Assembly: GCF_011299575.1 (NCBI RefSeq) | Contig: NZ_CP049863.1 | Span: forward strand, 1,116,001 to 1,180,000 | Direction of reading: 5' to 3' | Source: Leucobacter viscericola | GTDB taxonomy: Bacteria; Actinomycetota; Actinomycetes; Actinomycetales; Microbacteriaceae | DNA length: 64,000 nucleotides | Part shown: positions 22,351-45,948 of the stretch, in pieces | Layout of the letters: each line of letters begins with the position of its first letter | Position numbering within the stretch: position 1 is the first letter of the stretch | The notes under the pieces: generated by a model | Seen by the model: only the letters and a program-made list of their open reading frames with translations | Told to the model about the DNA's origin: nothing | The model's database searches: none | Program-made: the position numbers and the translations under genes

Positions 22351-23823
<1,473 letters not shown>

Positions 23824-24793: not shown

Positions 24794-26422
24794 CTACTTC
24801 TTGGAAACGACCAGCTGCTCCTGCTTGATCTCGGCCTCATCGAGCGTGTCGAACTGCTCAGCAAGCGACTGACCTGCCGAGGTGCGGAACTCGCTCTTGA
24901 ACTTCTCGATCTTTGCCTCGAGCTCAGCGACGATGTCGTCGTCGAGCACGTTGGTCTTACGCAGCGTGTTCAGCGCTTCTGAGTTGCGCGACAGGTAGTC
25001 GAGGAACTCACGCTCGAAGCGGAGAATATCTTCCACTGGGACGTCATCAAGGAAGCCCTTGGTGCCAGCCCAGATCGACACAGTCTGCTCTTCAACCGGG
25101 TACGGAGTGTACTGCGGCTGCTTGAGTAGCTCGGTGAGGCGAGCACCGCGTGCAAGCTGGCGACGGCTCGTCGGGTCAAGGTCGGATGCGAACATCGCGA
25201 AGGCCTCGAGCGAACGGTACTGAGCGAGCTCAAGCTTGAGCGTGCCGGATACCTTCTTGATCGACTTCACCTGAGCGTCGCCACCAACACGAGACACCGA
25301 GATGCCAACGTCAACGGCGGGGCGCTGGTTCGCGTTGAAGAGGTCCGACTGCAGGAAGATCTGGCCGTCGGTGATCGAGATCACGTTGGTCGGAATGTAC
25401 GCAGAAACGTCGTTTGCCTTGGTCTCGATGATTGGGAGTCCCGTCATCGAGCCTGCACCGAGCTCGTCGGAGAGCTTTGCACAACGCTCCAGCAGGCGCG
25501 AGTGCAAGTAGAAGACGTCACCGGGGTAAGCCTCGCGGCCCGGCGGACGACGCAGCAGAAGCGATACCGCACGGTAGGCCTCAGCCTGCTTGGAGAGATC
25601 ATCAAAAATGATGAGTACGTGCTTGCCGTCGTACATCCAGTGCTGGCCGATAGCCGAGCCGGTGTAGGGAGCAAGGTACTTGAAGCCTGCGGGGTCTGAC
25701 GCGGGAGAAGCCACGATCGTGGTGTACTCCATGGCGCCTGCGTCTTCCAGTGCGCCCTTTACGGAAGCAATGGTCGAGCCCTTCTGGCCGATCGCAACGT
25801 AGATGCAACGTACCTGCTTGGTGACGTCGCCCGACTCCCAGTTCGCCTTCTGGTTGATGATGGTGTCGATCGCGATAGCGGTCTTACCGGTCTGGCGGTC
25901 ACCAATGATCAGCTGACGCTGACCGCGGCCGACGGGGATCATGGCGTCGATTGCCTTGATACCGGTCTGCAGCGGCTCGTGAACCGACTTACGCTGCATA
26001 ACGCCGGGCGCCTGCAGCTCGAGTGCACGACGGCCCTCGATGTTTGCGATCTCGCCAAGGCCGTCAATCGGCTTGCCGAGGGGGTCAACCACGCGGCCGA
26101 GGTAACCCTCGCCCACGGGAACCGAGAGCACCTCACCGGTGCGGGTGACCGGCTGTCCCTCGGCGACGTCGGTGAACTCACCGAGTACAACAACGCCGAT
26201 TTCGTCTTCGTCAAGGTTCTGCGCAAGGCCAAGCGTGCCGTCTGCAAAGCGGACGAGCTCGTTGGCCATGACGCCGGGAAGGCCTGCAACGTGTGCAATG
26301 CCGTCGGCAGCGTCTACGACTGTTCCGACCTCGGTCTTGTCAGCCTGAGCCGGTTCGTATGACGCTGCGAAGTCTTTCAGCGCGTCGCGGATCTCGTCCG
26401 GGCTGATTGAGAGTTCTGCCAT
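24794..26422 (-). CDS. atpA: ATP synthase F1 subunit alpha
   Basis: A 542-residue non-catalytic nucleotide-binding subunit. Walker [16 protein letters not shown] near residue 170 and the signature [14 protein letters not shown] near 365 are intact. The C-terminus is extended past the usual end by about 30 charged residues ([17 protein letters not shown] ...), a feature of actinobacterial alpha subunits. Follows atpH by 54 bp. Confidence 0.97.
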
Positions 26423-41573: not shown

Positions 41574-42647
41574 CTACGAACCCAGGTCCGCCAGGCGCGC
41601 CTCTTCGTCGGCCTGAATGCAGGAGTCGATGACGGGGCCAAGGGCGCCGTCCATGACCGCGTCAAGGTTGTAGGCCTTGAATCCGGTGCGGTGATCCGCG
41701 ATGCGGTTCTCCGGGAAGTTGTAGGTGCGAATGCGCTCAGAACGATCCATGGTGCGGATCTGGCTCGAGCGGTGTGCGCTTGCCTCTGCCGCAGCCTCTT
41801 CCTGCTTGCGGGCGAGCAGGCGGGCGCGGAGCACGCGCATGCCGGCTTCACGGTTCTGCAGCTGCGACTTTTCGTTCTGCATTGCGACAACGATGCCGGT
41901 CGGGACGTGGGTGATGCGCACGGCTGAGTCCGTCGTGTTCACGGACTGGCCACCAGGGCCGCTCGAGCGGTAGACATCGATCTTCAGATCGTTCTGGCTA
42001 ATCTCGACCTCTTCGGGAGCGTCAACCTCGGGGTAGACCAGCACACCGGTCGTAGAGGTGTGAATGCGTCCCTGCGACTCAGTGACGGGCACACGCTGCA
42101 CGCGGTGCACACCACCCTCGTACTTCAGGTGAGCCCACACGCCCTGCGACGGGTCGGTCGCGTTCGACTTGATCGCGATCTGCACGTTCTTGTAACCACC
42201 AAGATCGCTCTCATCTTTCTCGAGCATCTCGGTTTTCCAGCCCTTGGACTCCGCGTAGTACATGTACATACGCAGCAGGTCAGCGCCGAACAGCGCCGAC
42301 TCGGCGCCGCCCTCGCCACCCTTGATCTCGAGGATCACGTCGCGGGCGTCGTCGGGGTCGCGCGGAATGAGGAGGCGGCGGACCTTCTCTTGGGCCTCAG
42401 CAAGCGACGTCTCCAGCTCAGGAATCTCTTCGGCAAACGCCTCGTCTTCCTTCGCGAGCTCGCGCGCTGCCTCAAGGTCCTCACCAAGCTGCTGCCAGCT
42501 CTCGTGCGCAGCCTTGATCTTGCTCAGCTCGGCGTAGCGGCGGTTGACCTTCTTCGCGCGCGCTGCGTCAGCGTGCAGCGCGGGATCGGCAAGTTCTTCC
42601 TGCAGCTGAGCGTGTTCAGCGAGCAGCGTTTCGACCTGTTCAAACAT
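41574..42647 (-). CDS. prfA: Peptide chain release factor 1
   Basis: A 357-residue class I release factor reading UAA and UAG. The peptidyl-hydrolase motif GGQ is in [16 protein letters not shown] near residue 228, and the anticodon-like tripeptide region and [12 protein letters not shown]-terminus match the family. ATG at 42647 with GAGAGG upstream; an in-frame start 42 bp further up lies inside the repeat region. Follows rho with a 132-bp gap in which rpmE, usual in actinobacteria, is absent. Confidence 0.95.
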
Positions 42648-42660
42648 TGGTGGCCTCTCA

Positions 42661-42736
42661 TCATTCTGCAGCGGCGGGCGCAGAACCAATTATGTTTCTA
42701 TTCTCTACCGTTAATCCTGCGACTTCATGCAGGATG
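42661..42736. repeat. Palindromic intergenic repeat, family B, copy 2 (diverged)
   Basis: Contains TCATTCTGC (42661-42669), GCAGAA (42680-42685), ATCCTGC (42714-42720), GACTTCAT loop and GCAGGATG (42729-42736), the same blocks in the same order as copy 1 at 33432-33504 but with a diverged, AT-rich centre. ATCCTGC / GCAGGAT still forms a 7-bp hairpin. Located between rho and prfA. Confidence 0.65.
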
Positions 42737-42769
42737 GCCCTGGGCAGCTCGCGTGAGCTGCCCAGGGCC
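42736..42769 (-). terminator. Strong hairpin directly after rho
   Basis: Perfect 15-bp arms GGCCCTGGGCAGCTC (42736-42750) and complement (42755-42769) around a four-base loop, 10 bp past the rho stop codon. No T-tract follows on the minus strand. It would end or pause transcription between rho and prfA, or stabilise the rho mRNA. Confidence 0.7.
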
Positions 42770-42779
42770 AGGGAAAGAA

Positions 42780-44798
42780 CTAAGAGAGTCGCCCGGAGCG
42801 CTGAATATCGGCGAGCAGCGCAGCGTTTGAAGACGCCGCACGAACGCGCTCAAGCACCTTGGCGGAGGCACCGTTCTCAGCGAGAGCGATCCTCACCGTG
42901 CCGAGGGCCTTTGCCTCGTCCTCGCCGAGCATCGCGCTCGCGTGCTGGGTGTGTGACGCAGCGATGTCAACCATCGGGGTCTGGCCGATGGCAGTCTCAA
43001 CGAAACGAACCTCGCTGTTGACCACCTGGCGAACCTCACGCAACAGCACCTTGTCGGAGTCGACCTTCGTCTTGGTGAGCGCGGTCGCGAGGATGGTGAG
43101 TGACCCACCGTTCTCAACGTTGCGAGCAGCGGAGAGCAGGCGCTTGATCTGTGCGAGTGCGTACTCATCGGCGGACTCGCTGGTTCCGCGTCCGCCACCG
43201 GGCTGGGTCTGCGCGTAGGCGCGGGCCAGACGGTTGAGCGAGTCGAGCAGAATAACAACGTCGTGCCCAAGCTCCACGAGTCGACGCGCGCGATCTACAG
43301 CGAGCTCGGCGATCGTGGTGTGGTCTTCAGCCGAGCGGTCGAACGTTGCCGCGATAACCTCGCCGCGGATCGTGCGCTGCAGCTGCGTGACCTCTTCGGG
43401 CAGAGCGTTGGAGAGCACCATCATCAGGTGAGCATCCGGCTTGTTTTCGGTGACCGCTGCTGCGATCTCGTCGAAGACGCGGGTTGCCGGGATCTGCGCC
43501 GGCAGAATGAGCACTCCGCGCTGGCCGAGGCCGATCGGCGCAACGAGATCAACGCTGCGGCCGATCATCTGGTGCGGAGCCAGCTCCATGCGCAGGCGCT
43601 CCTGCGGGAAGATCGGCGTCATGTCGGCAATGTCGACGCGCTTCTCGTCCTCGTCAACGGCACGACCGTTGATCGAGTCGACCTTAACGATCGCGTTGTA
43701 CTTCTGGCGGCTGCTGCCCTCGCCCTCGCGGGGCTGGCGGATCGAGCCGACCACTGCATCACCGCGGCGCAGGCTGTACTTCTTCACCTGACCAAGCGAG
43801 ACGTAGACGTCGCTCGTGCCGGGCAGGTAGCCGCTCGTGCGCACAAACGCGTAGTTATCGAGCACGTCAAGAATGCCCGCGATGGGCAGCAGCACGTCGT
43901 CTTCTGCGATCTCGGGCTCGAAGTCGTCGCCCTGGCCACGGCGCTTGCGGTCACGCTGACGGGTGCGGCTGGAGCGCGTCGCGCTTTCGTCCGCAGCCTT
44001 ATCGCTGTTGCGACCCGCGTTGCCGTTGCGGTTACCGTTCTGGCCCTGGTTGCGATTCTTGCTGTCGTCGGAATCACCCGAAGCCTGCTCGGAGTCTGCG
44101 GCGGGGGCCTCAGCCTCGGCCTTCTGCCCGCGTCCACGACGGTTGCGTGTGCGACCACCATCGGAGCCGGACTCGGACTCGTTCGCGGCGTTCTTCGAAG
44201 CGGCGGCTTCGCCCTCGGTGTCAGAGGAAGCGGCCTGCTCCTTGTCTGAAGCGTCTTCGTTCTTCGCGGCCTCTTCTGCGGCAGCGGCCTCAGCCGCGGG
44301 AGCCTCAGCCTGAACACGGCGGCCACGGGTGCGGCGCGCGGGTGCGGCGGGAGCCTCCGCGGTCTCGGCGGCGGGCGCAGCCTCAGCAGCAGGCGCCTCA
44401 GTCGCAGCAGCCTCAGCGGCGGGAGCCGCATCCTCAGCAGGAGCCTCAACGGCTTTCTTGCGAGTGCGAGTCACGCGCTTCTTCGGAGCCTCCTCAGCGG
44501 GCGCAGCCTCAGCAGCAGGTGCCTCGGTCGCAGCAGCCTCGGCGGCGGGAGCCGCGTCCTCAGCAGGAGCCTCAACAGCCTTCTTGCGAGTGCGAGTCAC
44601 ACGCTTCTTCGGAGCCTCCTCAGCGGGCGCAGCCTCAGCAGCGGGAGCTGCCTGAGCCTCAGCGGCCGCATCGGCAGCGGGGGTTCCCGCGGATGCCGTT
44701 GCGCGACGCGACGTGCGACGACGCACGGGCGCGGCCTCCGTTGCCTCTGCAGGCTCAGCCGCGGGAGTGGAGTTTGTGTCTTCGGTAGTTTGTTCCAT
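42780..44798 (-). CDS. rho: Transcription termination factor Rho, with degenerate ATPase motifs
   Basis: A 672-residue protein in the usual actinobacterial rho position. Residues 1-290 are a low-complexity Ala/Glu/Pro and Arg/Asn/Gly-rich extension; the RNA-binding domain (LDVLDNYAFVRTSGYLPGTSDVYVSLGQVKKYSLRRGD) starts near 315, followed by the motor domain. Many Rho landmarks remain: PIGLGQRG, RTIRGEVIAATFDRSAEDH, LLDSLNRLARAY with Walker B Asp519, AARNVENGGSLTILATAL. However, the P-loop (PPKAGKT in other Rho proteins) reads PAQIPATR at 433-440; the catalytic Glu segment DERPEEV is NALPEEV at 464-470; and the arginine finger (KRVFPAID) is replaced by GQTPMVDI. The reading frame is intact. 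ATG 44798 with AGAGGA upstream. Probably no ATP hydrolysis. Confidence 0.85.
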   Translation of the reverse strand: MEQTTEDTNSTPAAEPAEATEAAPVRRRTSRRATASAGTPAADAAAEAQAAPAAEAAPAEEAPKKRVTRTRKKAVEAPAEDAAPAAEAAATEAPAAEAAPAEEAPKKRVTRTRKKAVEAPAEDAAPAAEAAATEAPAAEAAPAAETAEAPAAPARRTRGRRVQAEAPAAEAAAAEEAAKNEDASDKEQAASSDTEGEAAASKNAANESESGSDGGRTRNRRGRGQKAEAEAPAADSEQASGDSDDSKNRNQGQNGNRNGNAGRNSDKAADESATRSSRTRQRDRKRRGQGDDFEPEIAEDDVLLPIAGILDVLDNYAFVRTSGYLPGTSDVYVSLGQVKKYSLRRGDAVVGSIRQPREGEGSSRQKYNAIVKVDSINGRAVDEDEKRVDIADMTPIFPQERLRMELAPHQMIGRSVDLVAPIGLGQRGVLILPAQIPATRVFDEIAAAVTENKPDAHLMMVLSNALPEEVTQLQRTIRGEVIAATFDRSAEDHTTIAELAVDRARRLVELGHDVVILLDSLNRLARAYAQTQPGGGRGTSESADEYALAQIKRLLSAARNVENGGSLTILATALTKTKVDSDKVLLREVRQVVNSEVRFVETAIGQTPMVDIAASHTQHASAMLGEDEAKALGTVRIALAENGASAKVLERVRAASSNAALLADIQRSGRLS
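44370..44650. repeat. 126-bp in-frame tandem repeat within rho
   Basis: About 2.2 copies of a 126-bp unit (42 codons); for example the TTCTTGCGAGTGCGAGTCAC block recurs at 44455 and 44581 with few differences. It encodes two copies of APKKRVTRTRKKAVEAPAED within the Ala/Glu-rich arm. Near-identity at the DNA level implies recent duplication or ongoing slippage. It adds a second Lys/Arg-rich patch to the disordered N-terminus. Confidence 0.85.
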
Positions 44799-45018
44799 GG
44801 TTTTCTTCCTCTCGGAACGCCGCCAGAAGAAAGCACTCACTTGGCTTCTCCTCCAGACGGGGGTGCACAGATGTGCGTCGGGATCACCGAGCTAATAGTC
44901 GGTGAGGAAAACGATTCACCACCCTGAGTGTCAAACAAACACCACATACATGGAGTTCTTCACTCTCGCTGACGCCGCCCCAAGAAGGGTTGGCACACAA
45001 CTCATCGTGAGTGCGCAG
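44799..45018 (-). promoter_or_regulatory. 220-bp leader between thrB and rho
   Basis: A non-coding gap between thrB and rho, both on the minus strand. Its middle (44900-44960) is the AT-richer part and most likely holds a rho promoter. I see no terminator with a T-tract and no conserved leader peptide. Rho genes are often autoregulated through such a leader, but nothing here proves it. Confidence 0.3.
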
Positions 45019-45948
45019 CTACGCGGGAATCGTCTCCACTGTAGCACCCTTGGAGTCAACCGCAAGGAGCAAAACCCGCCAATCGTCTCCACGTGCGGCC
45101 ACCAGGTCGGCGGCGGCAAGTCGCTCAGCGGGCCCGTTCGCCAGCACCAGCACTGACGGACCGGCACCAGACACAACCGCCGGATACCCTGCCGCGCGCA
45201 ACTCAGAAATAAGGTCACGCGTCTGCGGCATGGCCTCGCCGCGGTAGTTCTGATGCAGGCGATCCTCGGTTGCTTCAAGCAGCAATTCGGGGCTCTGCGT
45301 GAGTGCGGCGATCAGCAGCGCGGATCGCGACACGTTAAACACCGCGTCCTCGTGAGGCACCTGCTTTGGCTGCAGGCTGCGCGCGAGGGCTGTCGACATG
45401 GTGAAGCTGGGAACGAGCACAAGTGGGAAGACCCCGCGATGCACCATGAGTCGCTTGAACTTCGGACCGGTTTCGTTTGTCCAGGCAATAGTCAGCCCGC
45501 CGAAGAGTGCCGGGGCGACGTTGTCTGGGTGCCCCTCAAGCTCCGTCGCGAACGCCAACAGCTCTTCCTCGCTCAGCACGAGCGGCTGATCCGGGTCGCT
45601 CTCGAGCAAACCCTTCGCGATCATCACACCGGAGACGATGGCGGAACCCGAGGATCCCATGCCGCGGCCGTGCGGAATGCGATTGTGGGCCGAGATGTTG
45701 AGCCCGGGCATGTCGCGCCCCAGGCTTTCGAAGACGTGAGCCACGGCACGCACCACAAGGTTCGTCTCGTCGGTGGGCACCTCGCCCTCCCCTACCCCCG
45801 TTACGGTGACGGTTGCACCGGGAGTGTCGCGGGTCACCGCGGTCAGCTCGTCGCCGTACGCGAGCGCGATACCGAGTGTGTCGAAACCGGGCCCGAGGTT
45901 CGCGCTCGTCGCGGGAACGTAGGTCTTTACCGTGCGGGGGGCGCTCAT
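45019..45948 (-). CDS. thrB: Homoserine kinase
   Basis: A 309-residue GHMP kinase phosphorylating homoserine in threonine synthesis. Seen: VPATSANLGPGFDTLGIAL at the N-terminus, the ATP loop HGRGMGSSGSAIVSG near residue 91, and the C-terminal AVVSGAGPSVLVLA box. The ATG overlaps the hom stop (ATGA). thrC, which lies between hom and thrB in mycobacteria, is absent from the operon. Confidence 0.94.
   Translation of the reverse strand: MSAPRTVKTYVPATSANLGPGFDTLGIALAYGDELTAVTRDTPGATVTVTGVGEGEVPTDETNLVVRAVAHVFESLGRDMPGLNISAHNRIPHGRGMGSSGSAIVSGVMIAKGLLESDPDQPLVLSEEELLAFATELEGHPDNVAPALFGGLTIAWTNETGPKFKRLMVHRGVFPLVLVPSFTMSTALARSLQPKQVPHEDAVFNVSRSALLIAALTQSPELLLEATEDRLHQNYRGEAMPQTRDLISELRAAGYPAVVSGAGPSVLVLANGPAERLAAADLVAARGDDWRVLLLAVDSKGATVETIPA

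Follow-up and report, generated by a model that had tools for sequence, protein, structure and literature searches.

Can a bacterium keep Rho as its only copy after the residues that drive the Rho ATP motor have been lost? The rho gene of Leucobacter viscericola raises this question. It is a 672-amino acid (aa) open reading frame (ORF) with an ATG start and no internal stops, on the minus strand at 42780–44798 of the 64,000-nucleotide stretch of contig NZ_CP049863.1 analyzed here (hereafter, the window). An earlier reading of this DNA (the original prediction) described the gene as a Rho with an intact frame and no core ATPase residues. The explanation that we consider probable is that this sole, vertically inherited rho no longer encodes the residues needed for hydrolyzing ATP and translocating RNA, and that selection maintains it as an RNA-binding protein independent of ATP. 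Judged from its residues, the protein has very likely lost ATP hydrolysis and has likely retained RNA binding.

Loss of the ATP motor residues

Residues 308–672 of the protein form the Rho core, an OB fold followed by the RecA domain. In the former P-loop, PPKAGKT is replaced by PAQIPAT with loss of the Walker A Gly and Lys, as the original prediction had read, and the change of DERPEEV to NALPEEV that it reported is also borne out, the equivalent of Glu211 being Ala (table 1). Its statement that all core ATPase residues are missing is slightly too strong: the Walker A Gly and Lys, catalytic Glu, Arg valve, and Arg finger are gone, but the Walker B Asp (E. coli 265) is kept, as are the equivalents of Arg269 and Arg272. 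KRVFPAID is indeed lost, but is not the arginine-finger segment for which it was taken; it holds the Arg valve, which we take to be Arg353 and which falls in a gap here, while the finger, presumably Arg366, is found 13 residues beyond the valve and has been replaced by Gln in the window protein. The naming of valve and finger follows PMC8828861. The Q-loop and R-loop are lost as well, beyond the losses named previously. GK[ST] is absent from all three coding-strand frames of 42780–44898, and [AG]xxxxGK[ST] from the three plus-strand frames of this interval, so that no P-loop is hidden by a frameshift, in agreement with the original reading of the alternative frames.

In profile searches the protein passed the cut-offs of PF07497 (OB fold; 85.6 bits, cut-off 27) and PF00006 (RecA-type, ATP synthase alpha/beta-like fold; 44.9 bits, cut-off 29.5), narrowly passed NF006886 (PRK09376; 321.9 bits, cut-off 315), and failed TIGR00767 (Rho equivalog; 359.5 bits, cut-off 509.45) and NF041509 (paralog_Rho2, Rho short form; 334.8 bits, cut-off 628). 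An automatic pipeline relying on NF006886 would therefore still call it Rho. The AlphaFold model of the core has a mean predicted local distance difference test score (pLDDT) of 78.9, with most of RecA at 80–96, and its best matches are Rho structures (template modeling [TM] score 0.82 to 7oqh), making the RecA scaffold recognizable.

Distribution within Leucobacter

Of 54 genomes searched in the genus, 52 had a Rho match, exactly one in each; the two with no match are 72% and 76% complete. The genome of L. viscericola (3,697,133 bases in one contig, 99.72% complete) holds no second Rho in a whole-genome search with TIGR00767, which excludes the second canonical Rho that had been suggested to lie elsewhere. 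The next TIGR00767 matches in this genome score 38.7, 18, and 9.9 bits, the first two lying in the same window (22627–23394 and 25868–25960, minus strand) in ORFs that resemble, and presumably are, ATP synthase subunit genes. A plasmid-borne relative was considered and rejected, the plasmid matches being below 60% identity in 54 records and none relevant to this genome.

The P-loop is lost in 38 of the 52 genomes, far beyond chance. Lys184 is kept in none of the 38 (Gly in 25, Ala in 11, Ser in 2), Glu211 has become Ala in 37 and Thr in 1, and Lys326 of the R-loop is likewise absent from all of them; Arg353 is kept in 1 and Arg366 in 14 of the 33 P-loop-less rows of the alignment. The remaining 14 genomes retain Lys184 and Glu211 without exception, with Lys326 in only three and an eroded Q-loop, and to judge from these residues would represent an intermediate state. 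Ser230Ala (38/38), Glu211Ala (37/38), and His239Gln (36/38) distinguish the P-loop-less genomes from all 14 P-loop keepers, and Glu333Arg is present in 38/38 and also in one keeper. In total, 12 columns have a residue, unlike that of canonical Rho, that has reached at least 90% fixation among the P-loop-less rows, several of them in common with the keepers.

Relatives with proven ATPase activity and the same residues, named in the original prediction as a refutation, were not encountered among the loci compared. The nearest named relatives are from Leucobacter. Among the best 80 of 577 relatives' loci, 5 were from Leucobacter and 75 from named organisms outside the genus, and PPKAGKT was found in all 75. 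Within the genus the P-loop loss recurs in records of L. luti, L. chromiiresistens, L. chromiireducens, L. salsicius, and one Leucobacter metagenome-assembled genome (MAG), and a relative 96% identical has the same P-loop residues. One of the relatives' loci (JASDDH010000002.1), from a record titled Planococcus sp., ranks among Microbacterium loci and probably belongs to a mislabelled genome.

The core lies in one open frame in all 38 P-loop-less genomes. No stop interrupts 47 of the 52 genus matches, and the other five have one each, either in the final or penultimate position or at residue 320 of 331; being at or near the match end, these look like gene ends. In the Rho tree the 33 P-loop-less Leucobacter rows form one clade with support of 1.0. 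The simplest history appears, from the sequences compared, to be a decay of the channel loops, followed by a single loss of the ATP site and a long period of retention; the site would have been lost once, in the ancestor of most of the sampled Leucobacter species.

Selection on the OB fold and the RecA domain

Constraint has moved from RecA to OB in the motorless Rho, inverting the canonical pattern. The ratio of nonsynonymous to synonymous substitution rates (dN/dS) was estimated for close species pairs, 11 P-loop-less, 3 P-loop-keeping, and 11 canonical. Pooled values for OB and RecA, respectively, were 0.049 and 0.102 in the P-loop-less pairs, 0.115 and 0.137 in the keepers, and 0.105 and 0.051 in the canonical pairs. 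dN was lower in OB than in RecA in 10/11 P-loop-less and 3/3 keeper pairs and in 1/11 canonical pairs, the shift between P-loop-less and canonical pairs being significant (Mann–Whitney p = 0.0004), and an earlier run with looser domain borders and overlapping pairs gave the same direction. The pooled dN/dS of motorless Rho was 0.094, far below 1, with a per-pair range of 0.023 to 0.207.

Site conservation was counted as columns at least 95% invariant in 20 canonical and 33 P-loop-less rows. In the OB fold the counts are identical (51/70 in both sets), and they fall from 103/132 to 41/132 in RecA-N and from 98/125 to 16/125 in RecA-C. The OB residues Tyr62 (Phe in E. coli), Phe64, Arg66, Asp78, Tyr80, and Tyr110, which we take to be RNA contacts, are invariant in 52/52 genus genomes. 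The purifying selection that the original prediction expected is thus present, and its proposal of selection on the fold without ATP hydrolysis is supported by the sole copy, the low dN/dS, and the conserved OB fold, the lack of hydrolysis being read from the residues. Of the alternatives that it listed, the RNA-binding role is favored by the inverted constraint.

In the mechanism that we propose, the OB folds, aided by the basic low-complexity N-terminus, would bind exposed C-rich untranslated RNA, with the RecA domain serving as a static assembly scaffold. The protein, possibly docked on RNA polymerase, would hold or package nascent RNA but not thread along it, and there would therefore be no transcript release of the Rho type. 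Laboratory mutants offer a parallel: E. coli Glu211Ala and M. tuberculosis Glu386Ala keep oligomerization and ATP binding with hydrolysis abolished, and the latter binds RNA with no significant unwinding and no efficient transcript release (PMC4499133).

Several observations weigh against an ATP-independent RNA-binding role. Loss of Lys326 alone is not diagnostic, functional M. tuberculosis Rho having Thr at this position (PMC8828861, PMC4499133). The Walker B Asp is kept in 37/38 P-loop-less genomes (His in one), hinting at a residual structural or nucleotide role, and RecA, with a dN/dS of 0.102, is under clear purifying selection, for which there is no obvious need in a protein that binds RNA through its OB fold alone. 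In one of the 11 P-loop-less pairs (G037/G038) OB changes faster than RecA, and the AlphaFold model is weak in its OB part (pLDDT about 50). In the species tree of flanking genes, support for the node that joins the P-loop-less species is only 0.12, and the deep branches of the Rho tree depart from the species tree and are unreliable. Lastly, the tail after GGSLT is about 50 residues long at seven loci (L119, L120, L122, L124, L125, L130, and L131) as against 104 in the window, which could mean slow decay; we read these tails as probable further erosion after motor loss.

Alternative explanations

The main rival, to which we assign a minor share of the probability, is a terminator that works without translocation: motorless Rho would dock on RNA polymerase via its N-terminal domain (NTD), NusA, or NusG, and allosterically inactivate or slow the elongation complex without ATP. 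NusG is present in 30/30 genomes searched, with the KOW stretch SLFERETPVEL intact in 21/21 aligned Leucobacter sequences. The NTD, the best-kept part here, also bears RNA polymerase contacts (PMC8828861). E. coli Rho–RNA polymerase structures suggest that the elongation complex changes allosterically, with the ring open, before Rho engages RNA; their authors nevertheless postulate that closure of the ring and translocation are needed in the end for release (PMC9908020). The inefficient transcript release by M. tuberculosis Glu386Ala points the same way (PMC4499133). NusG was also tried as a tracker of motor loss, and rejected. Comparison of 5 canonical with 15 P-loop-less species shows 19 fixed differences, but 14 of these, including all four in the KOW core, are fully common to 6 P-loop keepers, and the KOW changes therefore do not track motor loss.

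Rho-independent termination, another outcome named in the original prediction, follows logically from loss of the motor, but was not accompanied by more hairpin terminators. Gene ends were pooled from 33 P-loop-less, 10 P-loop-keeping, and 25 canonical sources and 13 others, some represented by only one 11 or 20 kb locus; the gene caller was crude and many stretches were orthologous, giving the test low power. Hairpin excess at convergent ends was −2.37 kcal/mol in P-loop-less, −2.70 in keeper, −2.91 in canonical, and −3.08 in other sources, and in same-direction gaps −3.18, −2.50, −2.53, and −1.59 kcal/mol, respectively. No compensating rise in hairpin terminators of P-loop-less genomes was seen in this small pooled sample of low power. 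A trial on six genomes covered 6 to 29 gene ends per class and gave a coding-strand purine content of 0.485 to 0.502, in which there was no usable signal.

That rho is useless in this lineage and slowly being lost is a doubtful alternative. A decaying relic might well show what is seen here: scrambled motor motifs, a shortened C-terminal tail at one group of loci, and a roughly two-fold relaxation of RecA constraint relative to canonical Rho. Against this stand the open core frame of every P-loop-less genome, with the five stops of the genus resembling gene ends, the low dN/dS of all 11 pairs, and an OB fold under stronger constraint than in canonical Rho. Neutral evolution over the 11 pairs would have produced approximately 166 nonsense changes, an expectation to be read with the fact that the compared cores had been chosen as open frames; with stops found only at or near match ends, the gene does not behave like a pseudogene.

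A working ATPase with a rebuilt, noncanonical ATP site is improbable. The near-universal Walker B Asp, the RecA fold of the predicted model, and continued purifying selection on RecA would fit such a site, but GK[ST] is missing from every coding-strand frame, the catalytic Glu is Ala in all but one of the P-loop-less genomes, and the former P-loop segment varies between species of this group, leaving no new conserved motif in its place. Less probable still is a subunit of mixed rings with a second, active Rho or another ATPase; the retained scaffold would allow it, but the single Rho match per genome, here and throughout the genus, disfavors it. An assembly or sequencing error in this genome, for which nothing was found to speak, is excluded in practice, as the original prediction had argued of a sequencing slip, by a loss common to 38 genomes, the records of four named Leucobacter species, one MAG, and the 96% identical relative.

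Loss of Rho motor residues in other lineages

In the family Microbacteriaceae, 294 of 299 genomes had a Rho match and 256 passed the TIGR00767 cut-off, some of those below it having only contig-edge fragments. We examined 31 low scorers, 30 of them with a match. Lys184 is lost in all five genomes of genus g6 (G058, G140, G202, G252, and G296), which has genomes of 1.3–1.9 Mb and is sister to Leucobacter plus g51 in the tree of flanking genes. In genus g67 (G119, G182, G234, G280, and G320; 1.2–1.6 Mb) Lys184 is Arg in 5/5 and the C-terminal part is unmatched, the sole Rho match stopping near profile position 316 of 415; its loci (L159 and L162–L165) have open frames of 412–444 aa. Lys184 is also Arg in the single genomes of g15 (0.9 Mb) and g27. 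As a Lys-to-Arg change may leave some nucleotide binding, g67, g15, and g27 are weaker cases. Glu211 is lost with GKT kept in the one matched genome of g18, and in both genomes of g13 (L145 and L146) an intact GKS P-loop is combined with Glu211Ala, possibly an ATP-binding, nonhydrolyzing form to judge by these residues. Genera g30 (three genomes) and g51 (two genomes) keep GK[ST] and Glu211 and have changed loops. Of the OB residues in the 20 rows listed, Phe64, Arg66, Asp78, and Tyr80 are present in 20/20, Tyr62 in 19/20 (Cys in g15), and Tyr110 in 16/20. Because P-loop-bearing lineages separate g6, g67, and Leucobacter in the flanking-gene tree, independent losses are likely; in this tree g15 forms a long branch at the root, and g27 is not placed.

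In the order sample, 182 of 198 genomes were from other families, 195 were matched, and 194 passed the cut-off, the only matched genome below it being that of L. viscericola. Across the phylum 112 of 118 genomes were matched and 105 passed. Besides L. viscericola six phylum matches fell below the cut-off, of which four were read (G611 and G624 being left out): two from two other Actinomycetota families have a lone Rho with no Walker A Lys (L318 and L319, genomes G565 and G578), and two keep GKT (L320 and L321). Three genomes of the same class (G552, G620, and G637; 7.9–9.7 Mb) carry two Rho genes each, the second scoring 470.6–494.4 bits, below the TIGR00767 cut-off; this second Rho is a paralogue, unlike the sole motorless Rho here. 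The wider proposition, which we regard as evenly balanced, is that in Actinomycetota the sole Rho has repeatedly changed from an RNA motor driven by ATP into an RNA-binding protein without a motor, and that in Leucobacter the channel loops decayed first and the ATP site next, with the OB fold ending as the most constrained part.

Gene context and features of the locus

The rho gene lies in its usual actinobacterial place, as the original prediction noted, between neighbors that we take to be thrB and prfA. By frame midpoints the order hom–thrB–rho–prfA on one strand was found in 60 of 61 loci (the window and L168–L227), the exception being L181, in which an overlong thrB frame blurs the order. 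A perfect 15-bp inverted repeat, GGCCCTGGGCAGCTC / GAGCTGCCCAGGGCC, with a 4-nt loop is present at 42736–42769 of the window, between the rho stop and prfA; it has no T-run behind it on the minus strand and may be a U-less terminator or a processing hairpin.

The N-terminal extension comprises approximately the first 296 residues, and a similar one is found in canonical relatives in a comparison of composition across groups from which loci L086–L099 were left out. A basic patch within 40 aa of the OB fold is present in 24/24 P-loop-less loci (among L100–L131 only), 13/13 keepers, and 72/75 canonical loci. The extension of the window protein also includes two exact 41-aa copies of EAPKKRVTRTRKKAVEAPAEDAAPAAEAAATEAPAAEAAPA, spaced by one residue, at 44370–44492 and 44496–44618 (minus strand).

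Table 1. Coordinates of rho, its domains and altered motifs, and the adjoining genes in the window.
Feature	Position	Strand	Basis
rho, predicted motorless (pseudo-ATPase) Rho, 672 aa	42780–44798	-	ORF and profile searches
N-terminal low-complexity extension, probably disordered, Ala/Pro/Glu/Arg/Asn-rich	43911–44798	-	Sequence, composition across groups
Basic patch RTRQRDRKRRGQG, directly before the OB fold	43929–43967	-	Sequence
OB fold, primary RNA-binding site	43656–43880	-	PF07497, RNA-contact residues intact
Former Walker A/P-loop, now LPAQIPATR	43479–43505	-	Sequence, alignment
Former catalytic-Glu segment VDERPEEV, now SNALPEEV; Glu211 equivalent Ala	43389–43412	-	Sequence, alignment
Walker B segment ILLDSLNR, Asp kept	43230–43253	-	Alignment
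Former Q-loop (RNA channel), now QPGGGRGTSESAD	43167–43205	-	Alignment
Former R-loop and following segment; Lys326 equivalent Asp, EEFKGTGN now REVRQVVN	43011–43067	-	Alignment
Former Arg-valve/Arg-finger region, now GQTPMVDIAASHTQHASAM	42930–42986	-	Alignment
prfA (presumed release factor 1), conserved neighbor downstream of rho	41574–42689	-	ORF
thrB (presumed homoserine kinase), conserved neighbor upstream of rho	45019–45948	-	ORF

Comparison with known Rho proteins

Rho depletion is rapidly lethal in M. tuberculosis (PMC5379054), and the ATP-site residues of Rho are described as highly conserved even in divergent species (PMC8828861). No natural motorless Rho, and no study of Rho in Leucobacter or Microbacteriaceae, was found among the titles and abstract beginnings of the openly licensed literature, a search outside which the two main Rho surveys lie, and our claim of novelty is limited to the literature searched. 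Those surveys, D'Heygere 2013 and Moreira 2024, are not known to center on ATPase-dead Rho. A GC-rich actinobacterial genus that keeps rho without its motor is a natural experiment separating RNA binding by Rho from termination, with the 14 P-loop-keeping congeners as a before-and-after series, and it opens to direct test the old question of whether Rho can act if it does not translocate. Surveys of the presence or absence of Rho would score these genomes as having Rho-dependent termination.

The window protein resembles canonical Rho of M. tuberculosis (7oqh) and E. coli in its domain order, OB fold and RNA contacts, RecA fold, low-complexity N-terminal extension, and position between thrB and prfA. 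It is unlike them in having no Walker A Lys and Gly, catalytic Glu, Q- and R-loop residues, Arg valve, or Arg finger, in scoring under the TIGR00767 cut-off, and in the shift of constraint from RecA to OB. The E. coli E211A and M. tuberculosis E386A mutants carry the same Glu-to-Ala change (PMC4499133), but are laboratory point mutants with an intact P-loop, whereas the change in Leucobacter is natural, nearly fixed in its clade, and accompanied by the disappearance of the P-loop and the channel loops. The short-form paralogue of NF041509 has the Rho-like OB and RecA core in common with the window protein, which, in the absence of a second Rho, is not a paralogue beside a working one.

Pseudoenzymes in general keep a fold and lose its catalytic residues, and the window Rho is similar in its scrambled catalytic residues and its retained scaffold and ligand-binding part. 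It is, however, no duplicate released from its duty, being the only copy, and in many species this motor is essential (PMC8828861).

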